From: Acidobacteriota bacterium
GTDB taxonomy: Bacteria > Acidobacteriota > Holophagae > Acanthopleuribacterales > Acanthopleuribacteraceae
Direction: 5' to 3'
Assembly (NCBI GenBank): GCA_020439745.1
Contig: JAGQSC010000043.1
Coordinates: 1-64,000, forward strand
Length of the DNA: 64,000 nt
How positions within the stretch are numbered: position 1 is the first letter of the stretch; every line of letters starts with the position of its first letter. The position numbers and the translations under genes are program-made. The notes below the pieces were generated by a model, which was given only the letters and a program-made list of their open reading frames with translations, was not told the DNA's origin and did not search any database. Shown one piece after another: positions 36,254 through 41,493 of the stretch.

Positions 36254-36254
36254 A

Positions 36255-37211
36255 TCAGGCAGAAAAAATGGTGACGGCGTACCCTTGGGTAGCGTCTTTC
36301 AAGTCCTCACAGTGATTCCAACCGGCTCTTAATGCCAGCTTACTAATCTGGCGCGTGGTGTACTTCCGACTAATTTCAGTGTGGATGGTTTCCCAAGCCT
36401 CAAACGTGACGGTCATGTTTAATCGGGCCAGCCGTACCACTTGATTGCGGGTTGAAATCAGGTAACTACGTGCTTCTCCCCGTTCAGGATCATAGACGGG
36501 CACATGGTCAAAATAGTCCAGTTCAAAATCGGCCCCTAATTCACGATTCAAGCGCGTTAATAGATTTAGGTTAAACTGCCTGGTGACCCCGTGTGCGTCA
36601 TTGTAGGCAGCCTTGATTGCTTGAGGGGACTTTTTTAGGTCATATCCCACGCACAACAAATCTCCTGGGTTCGCAAACGCATTGAGATTGGATAGCAGTT
36701 CTAATGACTGCACATCGTCCAAATTCCCGATATTCGAACCCATGTAAAGCCAGACCTTTCGACCAACATGTCCCGAATAGGACAATTGAAAATAGTCGCC
36801 TTGCAATGGGGCCACGTGTAATGTCGGCAGGGCTTGTTTGAATTGAGCCACCAAAACTTTGAGAATGGCCGCGCTGATATCGACCGGTTGATAGGTGATG
36901 GGCACCTTGTTGGACACAAATGAAGATAGCAACGCCAAGGTTTTCGATCCATCGCCTGGACCCAATTCAATGAGTCGCATCGGTCGACCATCATGGAGCA
37001 ACTCTAACAAGCGGTCGTGGTGCCGAGTTAGTAACTCCTTTTCGCAGCGCGTTAGATAGTAGTCATCCAATTCCGTTATTTCCTGAAACAATCGGTCGCC
37101 CGTTGCATCATAAAAATACTTTGATGGAATATATTTAGGATGCGTTTTTAGGCCGGTCATCACGTCGGCTGCCAATTCACTGTTCAAATTCACATTACGA
37201 GCAAGATCCAT
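36255..37211 (-). CDS. egtD: L-histidine N-alpha-methyltransferase
   Basis: The 318-residue enzyme trimethylates histidine with three S-adenosylmethionine to give hercynine, the first step of ergothioneine synthesis. Family blocks are PKYIPSKYFYDATGDRLFQEI (N-terminal, quoted in part), the SAM-binding loop IELGPGDGSKT at about 81-91, WLYMGSNIGNL, and the C-terminal SRKYTTRQISKLALRAGW. Length matches EgtD of mycobacteria. It is the second gene after egtB on the same strand, 9 bp apart. No EgtA, EgtC or EgtE lies nearby, so the C-S lyase must be elsewhere. Confidence 0.94.
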   Translation of the reverse strand: MDLARNVNLNSELAADVMTGLKTHPKYIPSKYFYDATGDRLFQEITELDDYYLTRCEKELLTRHHDRLLELLHDGRPMRLIELGPGDGSKTLALLSSFVSNKVPITYQPVDISAAILKVLVAQFKQALPTLHVAPLQGDYFQLSYSGHVGRKVWLYMGSNIGNLDDVQSLELLSNLNAFANPGDLLCVGYDLKKSPQAIKAAYNDAHGVTRQFNLNLLTRLNRELGADFELDYFDHVPVYDPERGEARSYLISTRNQVVRLARLNMTVTFEAWETIHTEISRKYTTRQISKLALRAGWNHCEDLKDATQGYAVTIFSA

Positions 37212-37220
37212 TTCACTCCC

Positions 37221-38366
37221 CTACCGAGCTAGCCTGAGCCCTGAATACATCCAACGTTCATCAGGGTGGAAAAAATTCCGATAAGTCGGTCGTATTTGAT
37301 CAGCAGGTGTTGCCACCGATCCACCGCGCAATACCATTTGATTCACCATAAACTTCCCGTTGTATTCGCCTATAGCCCCTGTAGATGCCCTGAATCCGGG
37401 GTATGAACCGTAAGCCGACTGACTCCATTCCCAAAGCTGACCATTCTGTAAATCAGCTGCGGCTACTTCGCGCTCGAACTCAGTAGGCAGCCGCATTCCC
37501 ACGAATCGCGCGTAGGCGTCTGCCTCGTAATAACTCAAATGCTGCACGGGCGCCGACTCGTCCAACTCGGTCAGCCCCTTTTCCAGGTCATAGACACAGC
37601 GATCGTTCACGTGCCAATACAGGGGTGCCTCAACACCCTGTTGTTGAACCCAAGTCCAGCCTTCATCCAACCACAAAAGCGGCTGGCGATAGCCACCCGC
37701 ATGAATAAAAGCCAAGTATTCACCATTACTCACGAGACTTTGTGAAATTTCACTATTCGGGAGGTATACGGCGTGCTGGGGTGCCTCATTGTCGAAAAAG
37801 AACCCCTCACGAGCACCAATCTGATACATTCCACCGTCAATCTGCAACCATCCTGGAATTCCAACTTGCGGTTGCCGCACTGGCAAATCGATCGAAGGAA
37901 ATAGCGGATTTAAGCCCAAAATGTATTTGATGTCGTAGATCAACAATTCCTGATGTTGCTGTTCATGTTCTAATCCCAAAACGACTCGCGTCGCCATATC
38001 ATCTGTCAGTTCACCCAATAAAAACTCTCGCATCGCCCGATCAACAACGTCGCGATAGGCCCTGACCTCTGAAACCGTCGGGCGCGTTAATGATCCGCGA
38101 GCCACGCGAGGTGTGCGATCCCCCGCTGAATGGTAATAGGAATTAAACACAAAGCCATAACTTGGGTGGTGAGCCCGGTATTCAGCGACAAATGGCTCCA
38201 AAACAAAGGCCTCAAAGAACCAGGTCGTATGGCCCAAATGCCATTTGGGTGGACTGACGAAAATAGCGGGTTGGGCCACATGATCTTCGATTTCCAGCGC
38301 GTTACAAAGCGCAACCGTATGAGCCCTCACGCGCGAATAATGTTCAACCAGTTCCGTCAATATCAT
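37221..38366 (-). CDS. egtB: Ergothioneine biosynthesis sulfoxide synthase EgtB-like
   Basis: The 381-residue protein joins a DinB-like iron-binding domain to a C-terminal FGE-sulfatase/C-type-lectin fold, the layout of EgtB. Iron ligands are in WHLGHTTWFFE (about 42-52) and GLEHEQQHQELLIYDIKY (about 132-150), the HX3EXH-type site. The C-terminal part has RLPTEFERE, WEWSQSAYG and VLRGGSVATPADQIRPTYRNFF. EgtB uses O2 to join hercynine with cysteine or gamma-glutamylcysteine. Which thiol this one uses cannot be read directly; absence of EgtA/EgtC neighbours favours cysteine. It heads the pair with egtD. Confidence 0.92.
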   Translation of the reverse strand: MILTELVEHYSRVRAHTVALCNALEIEDHVAQPAIFVSPPKWHLGHTTWFFEAFVLEPFVAEYRAHHPSYGFVFNSYYHSAGDRTPRVARGSLTRPTVSEVRAYRDVVDRAMREFLLGELTDDMATRVVLGLEHEQQHQELLIYDIKYILGLNPLFPSIDLPVRQPQVGIPGWLQIDGGMYQIGAREGFFFDNEAPQHAVYLPNSEISQSLVSNGEYLAFIHAGGYRQPLLWLDEGWTWVQQQGVEAPLYWHVNDRCVYDLEKGLTELDESAPVQHLSYYEADAYARFVGMRLPTEFEREVAAADLQNGQLWEWSQSAYGSYPGFRASTGAIGEYNGKFMVNQMVLRGGSVATPADQIRPTYRNFFHPDERWMYSGLRLAR

Positions 38367-38460
38367 GCTCCGTGACGCGAATATGCCCGACAGCTACTGA
38401 CATCGTTGTGTCAGTTGGGATCCTGTCGCACATCAAATGGTTATCGAAGAACAAATGTTA

Positions 38461-40713
38461 TCACAGCGAGGAAAGCTCGCCGACAATCTCAGCCAACTCC
38501 AGGGACATGGGTGCATCTTCGCCCAGCGCCTCATTCACGGACCTCTGAAGCTCTTTGAATTTGATCCGTGCAGTATCGCGATCTCCAATCGTGCGATAAC
38601 CATCAGCCACAATCCACAATACCTCTCGCAAGCTCGGTTCTCGTGAATCAACCGTATTTTTTGCACGTTCAGCCAATTCAAGCATTCGCTGTAGAGCCCC
38701 CTGTTCTCCCCGGCCAAGACGCATTTCCAAGTAATACAACTCATTCAATATCACCTGAATATGATCAGGCCCCAGCAGGTCGCGGTAGCCTTCAATCGCT
38801 GTTTCAAATTGCTGATTCGATTCATTGATGTGCCCCAGCCAGCCAAGCGTTTGCGCCAACAATACCCTGGCTCTTAGCGTCTCTTGATGATGCAGGCCAA
38901 AGGCTCTCTCCGAGTCAGCCAATAGTTGATGGGCCAGTCTGTCAGCCAGTTGCCAATCTTCCTGGTTCACGACCGTGGTCAGGTAATCAGATAGATACGT
39001 CAATGTACGCGGGTGACTGGGCCCAAACTGTTGACAAGCCGTTTCATAGACTTTGTCATGAAGCGCCATGGCTTGGGTCACCTCACCGAAACGCCACAAG
39101 AGATCGGCCCACATGGAAGTTGCATCAAGGGTTCGCCGATCCAACGCGCCATACAGATGCTCAAATCCAGTCACGAGTTGTTCAGCTAATGGCCTGGCAC
39201 TTTCGTCTTGTCCGTAATCGAGCAGAAGGTTCAACTGGTCCCGTTCCAGGTCGAGCTTAAGGGCCAGGTCACTTCCCGCCTCTTGAATCAGACGCTTGTA
39301 AAGATCATGAGCGCCTCGAAAATCACCGTCGCGGTCAAGGGCCCGTGCCAAAGACCAATCAACGAGTACATCTTTTCCCTGATGCGGTCGCAGCAACTCG
39401 ACCGCTTCTGAAGCTCTGCCAAGGTCGACCCAACAATCAGCCACCAACCAACAGGCAGACCATGTATCTTTGTGATCGGAACCCAACAGCGACCGCCGCA
39501 ACTTCATGGCTTCTTCAGCCCGTTCGGTAGCTGCATTCAGCTCGCCCAGCGCCAGGAATGTCTTGGCAAATGACATCAACAGATTGGCTTGGATCTCGCC
39601 ATCAGCGGACAAGTCTGCTGGGTTGTAGGCAATCAACAAATCCCGAACCTTGATATCTTTTCCGTCAGCCATAGGGTCCGCAGAACCGAGAATTCGGTCC
39701 AAAATGTTCAGCGTTTCATTCGCAATTTCAGCTTGTCTTATCGCACGCGCTTCAGATTGCCGTGCTCGGATGTAACCCCACCCCGAGGCCACACAGGCCA
39801 CGCATAAACTAGACATAATCGCTGCAATCATCCATCTTTTGGCGCGCCTGCGCGGCGCTTCCCTGATCCAAGCGATGCGTCGAGCTACATCCTGTGCCGC
39901 AGGTCTCGAACCGGCACTCAGACTTTTCATCTGCTCAATCAAGTTCGCTTCTTCGCCTTTCAAACCGGTTAATGGTAGCGACTCGCCGCTGACCACTTTC
40001 CATAACAAAGCGACTGAATTCAGATTGGCACGATACGGATGTTGCCCGGTAAATAGGAACTGGTAAATAAGGCCTAGAGAAAATATGTCAGACGCCGTGG
40101 TCAAGGTTTGTCCCCGAGCCTGTTCGGGGCTCATGTATTTGGGCGTGCCCACGATAGCACCCACCTGGGTACTGGAGTCATCGAGATTCGATGTTTCTTG
40201 CCAGGTATGCTCATTCATCTCATCGTCGATTGTCTTATCGAGTGGCTTTGCGAGTCCGAAATCAAGAATCTTCACCTGGAAGTCCTCAGTGATCATCACA
40301 TTGTCAGGCTTCAAGTCTCGGTGCACCAAGTTTTGGTCGTGCGCACAACCGACAGCGACTGCAAGTTGCTGGGCAATATCCCATTTTTGTCTTTTGGTGA
40401 GCCCCGATTGGGCGTCTGTCAACGTTTGCCCAATTACATATTCCAGTACGATGGCATCGTTTCCATGGGTCTCCACCAAATCGTAGATCTGACAGATGGC
40501 TGGATGATTGAGTTTGGAAAGCACCCTCGCTTCCCGTTGAAACCGATCCTTGCCAATCGTATCTAGGCGACCTTTCTCGTTGATAAACTTAATCGCCACC
40601 TGCCGTTGCAGAAGCGTATCAAAACCTAAATAGACCGATCCCATCCCACCTTCGCCGATCAGATGTTTCACCTGGTACCGGTCGCCTATCAACCTGACCT
40701 CAGCTTGATTCAT
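38461..40713 (-). CDS. Membrane-anchored Ser/Thr protein kinase with C-terminal TPR repeats (kinase 2)
   Basis: This 750-residue protein shares the layout of kinase 1. The Hanks-type kinase domain shows IGEGGMGSVYLG (19-30), Lys42 in VAIKFI, Asp133 in HRDLKPDN, Asp151 in DFGLAK and GTPKYMSPEQ in the activation segment. A single membrane helix lies at about 292-312 (WMIAAIMSSLCVACVASGW). The C-terminal 400 residues are TPR-type repeats. It lies 94 bp upstream of egtB on the same strand, so it may be cotranscribed with the ergothioneine genes. An orphan terminator and structured sequence lie just ahead of its start. The kinase call is secure; its ligand is unknown. Confidence 0.95.
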   Translation of the reverse strand: MNQAEVRLIGDRYQVKHLIGEGGMGSVYLGFDTLLQRQVAIKFINEKGRLDTIGKDRFQREARVLSKLNHPAICQIYDLVETHGNDAIVLEYVIGQTLTDAQSGLTKRQKWDIAQQLAVAVGCAHDQNLVHRDLKPDNVMITEDFQVKILDFGLAKPLDKTIDDEMNEHTWQETSNLDDSSTQVGAIVGTPKYMSPEQARGQTLTTASDIFSLGLIYQFLFTGQHPYRANLNSVALLWKVVSGESLPLTGLKGEEANLIEQMKSLSAGSRPAAQDVARRIAWIREAPRRRAKRWMIAAIMSSLCVACVASGWGYIRARQSEARAIRQAEIANETLNILDRILGSADPMADGKDIKVRDLLIAYNPADLSADGEIQANLLMSFAKTFLALGELNAATERAEEAMKLRRSLLGSDHKDTWSACWLVADCWVDLGRASEAVELLRPHQGKDVLVDWSLARALDRDGDFRGAHDLYKRLIQEAGSDLALKLDLERDQLNLLLDYGQDESARPLAEQLVTGFEHLYGALDRRTLDATSMWADLLWRFGEVTQAMALHDKVYETACQQFGPSHPRTLTYLSDYLTTVVNQEDWQLADRLAHQLLADSERAFGLHHQETLRARVLLAQTLGWLGHINESNQQFETAIEGYRDLLGPDHIQVILNELYYLEMRLGRGEQGALQRMLELAERAKNTVDSREPSLREVLWIVADGYRTIGDRDTARIKFKELQRSVNEALGEDAPMSLELAEIVGELSSL

Positions 40714-40762
40714 GTCTCTATTCTACTGACTAAGGCATTGAGTTGGCAGCATGAGCATCGAC

Positions 40763-40789
40763 AAAAAAGTGGGGCGCGATAGGCGCCCC
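40763..40789 (-). terminator. Rho-independent terminator or attenuator upstream of kinase 2
   Basis: GGGGCGC (40771-40777) pairs with GCGCCCC (40783-40789) over a 5-base loop, and on the minus strand is followed by six Ts (complement of 40763-40768). It lies about 50 bp upstream of the kinase 2 start. No annotated minus-strand gene ends here, so it must end a small RNA or act inside the kinase leader. Confidence 0.8.
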
Positions 40790-40990
40790 GAGAAAAGTTG
40801 AGAACGGAGTCTTCATGCCAATGCATCAAAAGGCGACAATCTGCCGCCATAGGAATGGTGACAAATCCGGTCGATGCACCTTATTTATACGATTACATGA
40901 CCAGACAAACCTCTATAGAACAAAGTAGGTTTCTGTCGGCTGATTTGCAAGTGTTGCGTGTGGTCTCGCTCTTTTCTTGGGGTCTCCCCA
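40763..40990 (-). ncRNA. Candidate structured small RNA or attenuated leader upstream of kinase 2
   Basis: The minus-strand sequence ahead of the orphan terminator contains nested pairing. TGCATC (complement of 40873-40878) pairs with GATGCA (complement of 40822-40827), enclosing GGCG/CGCC (40832-40835 with 40845-40848). Farther upstream a TGGGG-AGA-CCCCA hairpin lies at 40978-40990. There is no credible minus-strand coding frame. No known riboswitch or 6S/SRP signature was recognised. The 5' end is a guess, taken from the outermost hairpin. Confidence 0.35.
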
Positions 40991-41047
40991 CAGCCAGTCG
41001 ATGAAAGCGCTTGCCTCCCCAACTGACACATTTCAAAAAAATTCATT

Positions 41048-41093
41048 TTGACTGAAACCCGGCGCGCGTGCTACCGTATTACTTGACTAATAC
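41048..41093 (+). promoter_or_regulatory. Promoter region with a palindromic operator for the GntR operon
   Basis: GTATTA (41076-41081), six bases, then TAATAC (41088-41093) make a perfect inverted repeat, of the type bound by YtrA-subfamily GntR dimers. It lies 20 bp ahead of the gntR ATG. A -35-like TTGACT (41048-41053) lies upstream and the -10 would fall at about 41071-41077, abutting the repeat. Autorepression of the operon is the natural reading. Confidence 0.55.
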
Positions 41094-41112
41094 ACCAGAT
41101 CGGTTGGTGGCT

Positions 41113-41493
41113 ATGTTAATCCATGTTGAACATCATTCAGGCGTGCCCGTGTACCGGCAGATCATAGACCAAGTGGTCTTTCACATCGCGTCGGGAATAC
41201 TCAAGGTAGGAGATGAATTGCCTTCCGTGCGACATCTATCGAAACAGCTACAGGTGAATCCTATGACCATTTCCAAAGCGTTTTCGTTTTTGGAACATGA
41301 TGGCTTTGTAGAACGACGGCCAGGCAGGCCGCTCTTGGTTTCAGAACAACATGCAGCCAACGAAATCGCAAAAAAACTGACTCTGGTTCGAGAAGACTTA
41401 AAGAACACAGTCGTCAAGGCGCAACAACTGAGCATCGATAAACAAGCTCTGAAACATCTCATGGATGAGATTTGGCAAGAGGTGGATTCATGA
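41113..41493 (+). CDS. GntR-family transcriptional regulator, YtrA subfamily
   Basis: The start at 41113 (MLIHVEHHSGVPVYRQI) is chosen because the family begins here; the frame is open to 41068. The 126-residue protein has a winged helix with VYRQIIDQVVFHIASGILKVGDELPSVRHLS (quoted in part) and NPMTISKAFSFLEHDGFVERRPG, followed by only a short helical tail. The short tail instead of a ligand domain defines the YtrA subfamily. Such genes regulate the ABC operon they head. The next ATG overlaps its stop by 4 bp. An operator-like palindrome lies directly upstream. Confidence 0.92.
   Translation: MLIHVEHHSGVPVYRQIIDQVVFHIASGILKVGDELPSVRHLSKQLQVNPMTISKAFSFLEHDGFVERRPGRPLLVSEQHAANEIAKKLTLVREDLKNTVVKAQQLSIDKQALKHLMDEIWQEVDS

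Follow-up and report, generated by a model that had tools for sequence, protein, structure and literature searches.

An orphan intrinsic terminator ahead of a kinase-ergothioneine gene block in an Acidobacteriota genome: candidate end of a small RNA gene

What does an intrinsic transcription terminator do where no gene stands before it? The question is raised by the minus strand of a 64,000-nucleotide stretch of DNA from an Acidobacteriota bacterium of the family Acanthopleuribacteraceae (contig JAGQSC010000043.1, positions 1 to 64,000; hereafter the window), in the 399-bp gap between the ATG of a protein kinase gene (40713, minus strand) and a divergent gene for a GntR-type regulator (41113, plus strand). 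An original prediction, made from the letters of this DNA, placed here a terminator with no gene to terminate and proposed that it belongs either to a new small RNA or to a riboswitch-like attenuator of the kinase-ergothioneine transcript. The neighbouring genes are the following:

38461 to 40713, minus strand: Ser/Thr protein kinase with C-terminal tetratricopeptide repeats ('kinase 2')
37221 to 38366, minus strand: egtB, downstream of the kinase (Pfam FGE-sulfatase/DinB_2)
36255 to 37211, minus strand: egtD, downstream of the kinase (Pfam Methyltransf_33)
41113 to 41493, plus strand: divergent gene for a GntR-type regulator, at the head of an ABC-transporter operon (same-genus ortholog, 63%)

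The nearest GntR subfamily of the divergent regulator is presumably YtrA. Mycobacterial PknD phosphorylates EgtD. The kinase of the window (38461-40713) has 89 matches in this 5.1-Mb genome, which seems to hold a large set of Ser/Thr kinases; a search of the genome contigs with its C-terminal part found no relatives.

The sequence of the terminator is as the original prediction described it, a minus-strand hairpin of 7 bp, all GC (40789-40771), followed by AC and a run of six T, and its distance from the kinase start, put at 50 bp, measures 49 nt from the last T to the ATG:

40763 to 40789, minus strand: intrinsic terminator (GGGGCGC 40789-40783, loop CTATC 40782-40778, GCGCCCC 40777-40771, AC, six T 40768-40763)

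This exact pattern is present as a single copy in the genome. No minus-strand gene of at least 80 codons was seen in the gap, and eight stretches in 40710-41070 gave coding scores of -0.071 to -0.007, with the 5th percentile of coding pieces at 0.008 and the kinase at 0.158. Because all eight score below that percentile, the word 'orphan' is correct: the terminator has neither a protein gene nor a tRNA gene of its own, and the claim that it has no gene to terminate holds, with no coding-like stretch before it.

Several other identities were considered for the region and rejected. A hidden short protein gene was dismissed since the open frames of 56 and 61 codons carry neither a Pfam match nor a coding signal, and the 56-codon frame, the first of the two, has no phage match. 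A tRNA or tmRNA was ruled out, as was a repeat or mobile element (one genome copy; no phage or plasmid match). 6S RNA was discarded for want of an RF00013 match, the 6S RNA of this genome being located at C51:87627-87804, and no known Rfam family matched at its gathering score, the nearest matches being at chance level (E 1.3 to 8.4).

Could a hairpin and a T run of this kind have arisen by chance? A permissive scan speaks for this, having found 11 terminators against 9.8 in shuffles. In contrast, a strict rule (a stem of at least 6 that includes 5 or more GC pairs, 6 or more T among 8, a score of at least 21), applied to the window and 2.0 Mb of the same genome (2.063 Mb in all) with an ORF-based gene model of at least 80 codons, yielded 55 sites, 13 within genes and 42 intergenic. 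Two shuffled 1.264-Mb copies contained 19 strict sites in total, scattered over all sequence, and intergenic DNA makes up about 6% of the sample (125,206 of 2,063,000 bases), so that about one intergenic chance site is expected per 2 Mb, against the 42 observed. Most of the intergenic sites (35 of 42) come after the end of a same-strand gene, and of the 18 gene-following sites in the first 1.264 Mb, 16 lie no more than 43 nt from the stop. Among the seven others, one (C33:152586) marks the end of a tRNA, and another (C6:237114) comes after an ORF of 55 codons whose codon use resembles that of coding sequence (score 0.114). Four more sit at a distance of 4-29 nt from a convergent gene's 3' end, whose terminator they may represent as read from the opposite strand. 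The seventh is the window terminator, the sole one without an ordinary explanation. With about one chance site expected per 2 Mb, one of the seven could be of this origin; set against 42 intergenic sites, a chance product is nevertheless highly unlikely.

Whether the terminator lies within the kinase transcript was approached through a survey of TATAAT-like hexamers ahead of 1719 ORFs (ATG start, at least 150 codons) in sampled stretches of this genome. These hexamers show a sharp peak at exactly -12 from the ATG (17 of 1719 genes), with 5 at -11 and between 0 and 7 at each position from -20 to -13. An SD-like motif precedes none of these 17 genes, as opposed to 34% of all genes; their -10 hexamer is often TAGAAT, and at -35 their matches exceed the average by little (mean 3.4 versus 2.9). 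Judged from these features, the -12 class is apparently the signature of leaderless transcripts, the first base of which would be the A of the ATG, and since about 2 to 3 of the 17 would be background at -12, any one member would have a chance of roughly 85% of being a true leaderless case. The kinase is itself among the 17, with a TAGAAT that starts exactly at -12, and its membership of this class puts its likely promoter downstream of the terminator:

40720 to 40749, minus strand: likely kinase promoter (CTGCCA 40749-40744, 18 bp, TAGAAT 40725-40720), giving a leaderless mRNA from the ATG at 40713

The last T of the terminator is separated from the kinase -35 by 13 nt, which would leave the terminator outside this transcription unit. 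The genome-specific rule that a -10 at exactly -12 denotes a leaderless gene is the more useful by-product of the analysis, as a cheap way to decide whether an upstream hairpin is inside or outside a transcript. An attempt to define a promoter of the clade from the regions upstream of 6S RNA gave no usable result.

The original prediction also reported nested stems and a GGGG-AGA-CCCC hairpin in the minus strand upstream of the terminator, and these are present in the predicted fold of the 228-nt stretch (40763-40990), which reaches an MFE of -73.9 kcal/mol with z -3.41 and 0 of 200 shuffles as good (z -3.78 in a second run). Among 128 sampled 228-nt pieces of the window (25 shuffles each), z was at or below -2 in 7 and at or below -3.4 in 3, and the plus strand of the whole 228-nt stretch gave z -1.74 (12 of 200 shuffles as good). 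When the terminator is removed, the 197-nt remainder has z -2.02, with 5 of 200 shuffles as good. A 116-nt version from 40878 gives -39.1 and z -3.13 with the terminator, its 88 nt without the terminator z -1.25 (equalled by 24 of 200 shuffles), and the 120 nt upstream z -0.63. The significance of the fold rests mainly on the terminator; the remaining fold is unremarkable and counts as weak evidence. Its predicted elements are as follows:

40820 to 40880, minus strand: predicted 10-pair closing stem (40880-40871 with 40829-40820) around one or two hairpins in the 116-nt fold, candidate 5' domain of an RNA of about 116 nt with a putative start
40790 to 40819, minus strand: pyrimidine-rich linker from the stem-loop to the terminator, mostly unpaired in the predicted fold
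40979 to 40989, minus strand: GGGG-AGA-CCCC hairpin of the fold, the CCCC of which, with AAGAAAAG, may alternatively pair with CTTTTCTCGGGG at the terminator 5' arm

For the comparison with relatives, one other genome of the same genus (G001) and five more of the family were used. A blastn search of 41 genomes with the whole gap returned the self-match only. A single-sequence covariance model likewise found only itself at a significant E-value, both in 93 genomes of the class (one other match, E 0.37) and in 36 relatives (two matches in one genome, E 0.18 and 0.35). The covariance search suggested along with the original prediction thus brought no homolog in 93 or 36 genomes and hence no material for a covariation test. 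Conservation of sequence or structure, the usual if not strictly required criterion for small RNA genes, was not found in these genomes, and the one other genome of the genus that was compared lacks the whole segment.

In G001 an NTF2-like gene (56% identity) stands directly before the GntR gene, with 90 bp between them, a gene order from which it follows that the kinase-egtB-egtD block and the terminator region are either an insertion here or a deletion there. In the window the egtD-egtB-kinase block (36254-41040) sits between the NTF2-like gene and the GntR gene that are adjacent in G001. The only stretch of the gap that aligns well with the G001 spacer is one of 29 bp (41069-41097). This box, a near-palindrome (GTATTA-N-TTGACTAATAC) kept upstream of GntR in both the window and G001, is probably the promoter and self-operator of the GntR gene. 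The best relatives of EgtB in the genome collection are mostly from Bacteroidota (up to 55%), which hints at horizontal transfer. A total of 83 loci was examined (80 EgtB loci of other genomes and 3 others), with EgtD in 80 and the kinase in one; since the kinase was found in 1 of 83 loci and in none of the 80 EgtB loci, the kinase-ergothioneine order, judged from these sequences, is not a conserved operon among the loci examined.

Our preferred answer, to which we give a probability of about 0.45 and which is thus tentative, is that the terminator ends a separate short non-coding unit on the minus strand of the divergent gap between the GntR and kinase genes. A separate unit is favoured because strict intergenic terminators mostly sit after same-strand genes (35 of 42), and because no coding frame precedes this one while the kinase promoter signature lies downstream of it. 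Polymerase would start between about 41100 and 40875, read leftwards and stop at 40763. The product, an RNA of about 115 to 330 nt, would begin with a stem-loop domain at its 5' end, continue through a pyrimidine-rich linker and close with the terminator hairpin and its U tail. This would be the layout of a trans-acting, possibly Hfq-bound, small RNA; the kinase would be transcribed afresh from its own promoter (40749-40720), yielding a leaderless mRNA. Hfq is encoded in the genome, and its presence was counted in favour of a small RNA. Counted against it were the missing homolog, the unremarkable remaining fold, the chance-level Rfam matches and the lack of a convincing promoter: upstream of the terminator only weak candidates were found, among them a -10-like TATAAA at 40889-40884 with a poor -35, and even the best -10 candidates go with a -35 that matches at no more than 3 of 6 positions. 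The existence of the transcript, its start and any regulatory target are what we infer from the sequence. Of the two proposals of the original prediction, the small RNA stays the best reading, as a candidate, and the attenuator is disfavoured by the leaderless-type promoter signature of the kinase downstream.

The attenuator, or riboswitch, would belong to the leader of kinase-egtB-egtD, where the 5' GGGG-AGA-CCCC hairpin would compete with an antiterminator (CCCC and AAGAAAAG with CTTTTCTCGGGG, the latter including part of the 5' arm of the terminator) and a signal would decide between termination and read-through. Strand and distance (49 nt) are correct for such a device; moreover, once the 3' arm is blocked, the antiterminator becomes the best fold (-65.7 kcal/mol, the unblocked leader reaching -74.0), and the same form has the lowest free energy in the transcript just before the 3' arm of the terminator emerges. 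However, the pairing barely beats shuffles and is weak: for the two longer targets, 34 to 137 of 1000 shuffled sequences pair equally well, and for the two shorter ones more than 830 of 1000 do. The terminator of a riboswitch lies within the regulated leader, and here the kinase -10 at -12 is downstream of it. No conserved aptamer was found in Rfam or in the 93 genomes, in G001 the most similar full-length kinase (39%) is preceded by a spacer of about 60 bp without such an element, and the gene order itself is not conserved. Because of the downstream promoter signature, the bare spacer of the same-genus kinase and the missing Rfam match, we regard an attenuator as unlikely. A special form of it, with a second, longer kinase-egtB-egtD transcript from near the GntR operator and a GGGG toggle that senses thiol or redox state, has only the slightest chance of being right; if true, one RNA element would couple a protein kinase to ergothioneine synthesis.

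The main rival to a small RNA is a real terminator without a functional RNA, which either insulates the kinase promoter, by blocking stray minus-strand transcription from the GntR control region, or is the leftover stop of a gene that disappeared as the kinase-egt block arrived at this site. The direct neighbourhood of the NTF2-like and GntR genes in G001, with the block as insertion or deletion, and the mere 29 bp of the gap that align well with the G001 spacer are in keeping with such an origin, as are the weak fold without the terminator and the unclear promoter of the RNA. Against it, the gap holds no recognisable gene remnant, with no coding signal and no Pfam match except a spurious one (E 0.049). 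We consider an insulating or relic terminator quite possible, if doubtful.

A small RNA gene would have parallels in known systems. In the screen of Sinorhizobium meliloti, orphan terminators were a scoring criterion for small RNA candidates, and the candidates of its Table 1 were conserved in a related species, with one exception (PMC2573895). Like such intergenic genes of Hfq type, the locus has an orphan terminator on a strand on which no flanking gene ends, a predicted 5' stem-loop, an unpaired linker and a U tail, in a genome with Hfq. Unlike them, it has no conserved homolog and no clear promoter, and its transcript is a putative one. The Rfam small RNAs ncS025, ncS16 and suhB/mmgR also carry a terminator hairpin after a pyrimidine-rich linker, but with 14.4-17.6 bits (E 1.3-3.1) the locus stays below their gathering scores of 41-48 and is not a member of these families. 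With attenuators and riboswitches it shares a terminator ahead of a co-directional gene and a conceivable antiterminator; it differs from them in the kinase promoter signature downstream of the terminator and in having no known aptamer.

The feature is likely ordinary and lineage-specific, and neither the approach nor this type of object is new. Were the region transcribed, it would add a small RNA gene to a lineage in which these genes have apparently received little study; a title-level search of the literature on Holophagae riboswitches and Acidobacteriota small RNAs found no title on such RNAs. At L095:13635-13680 a strong terminator lies 243 nt past one gene and 69 nt short of the following one, after a CTCCTCCTCC linker; it has no match in Rfam and is a candidate second site of the small RNA kind. 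At L237:17100-17400, on the minus strand, a coding-like small ORF of 55 codons stands in a long divergent gap and is followed by a strong terminator.
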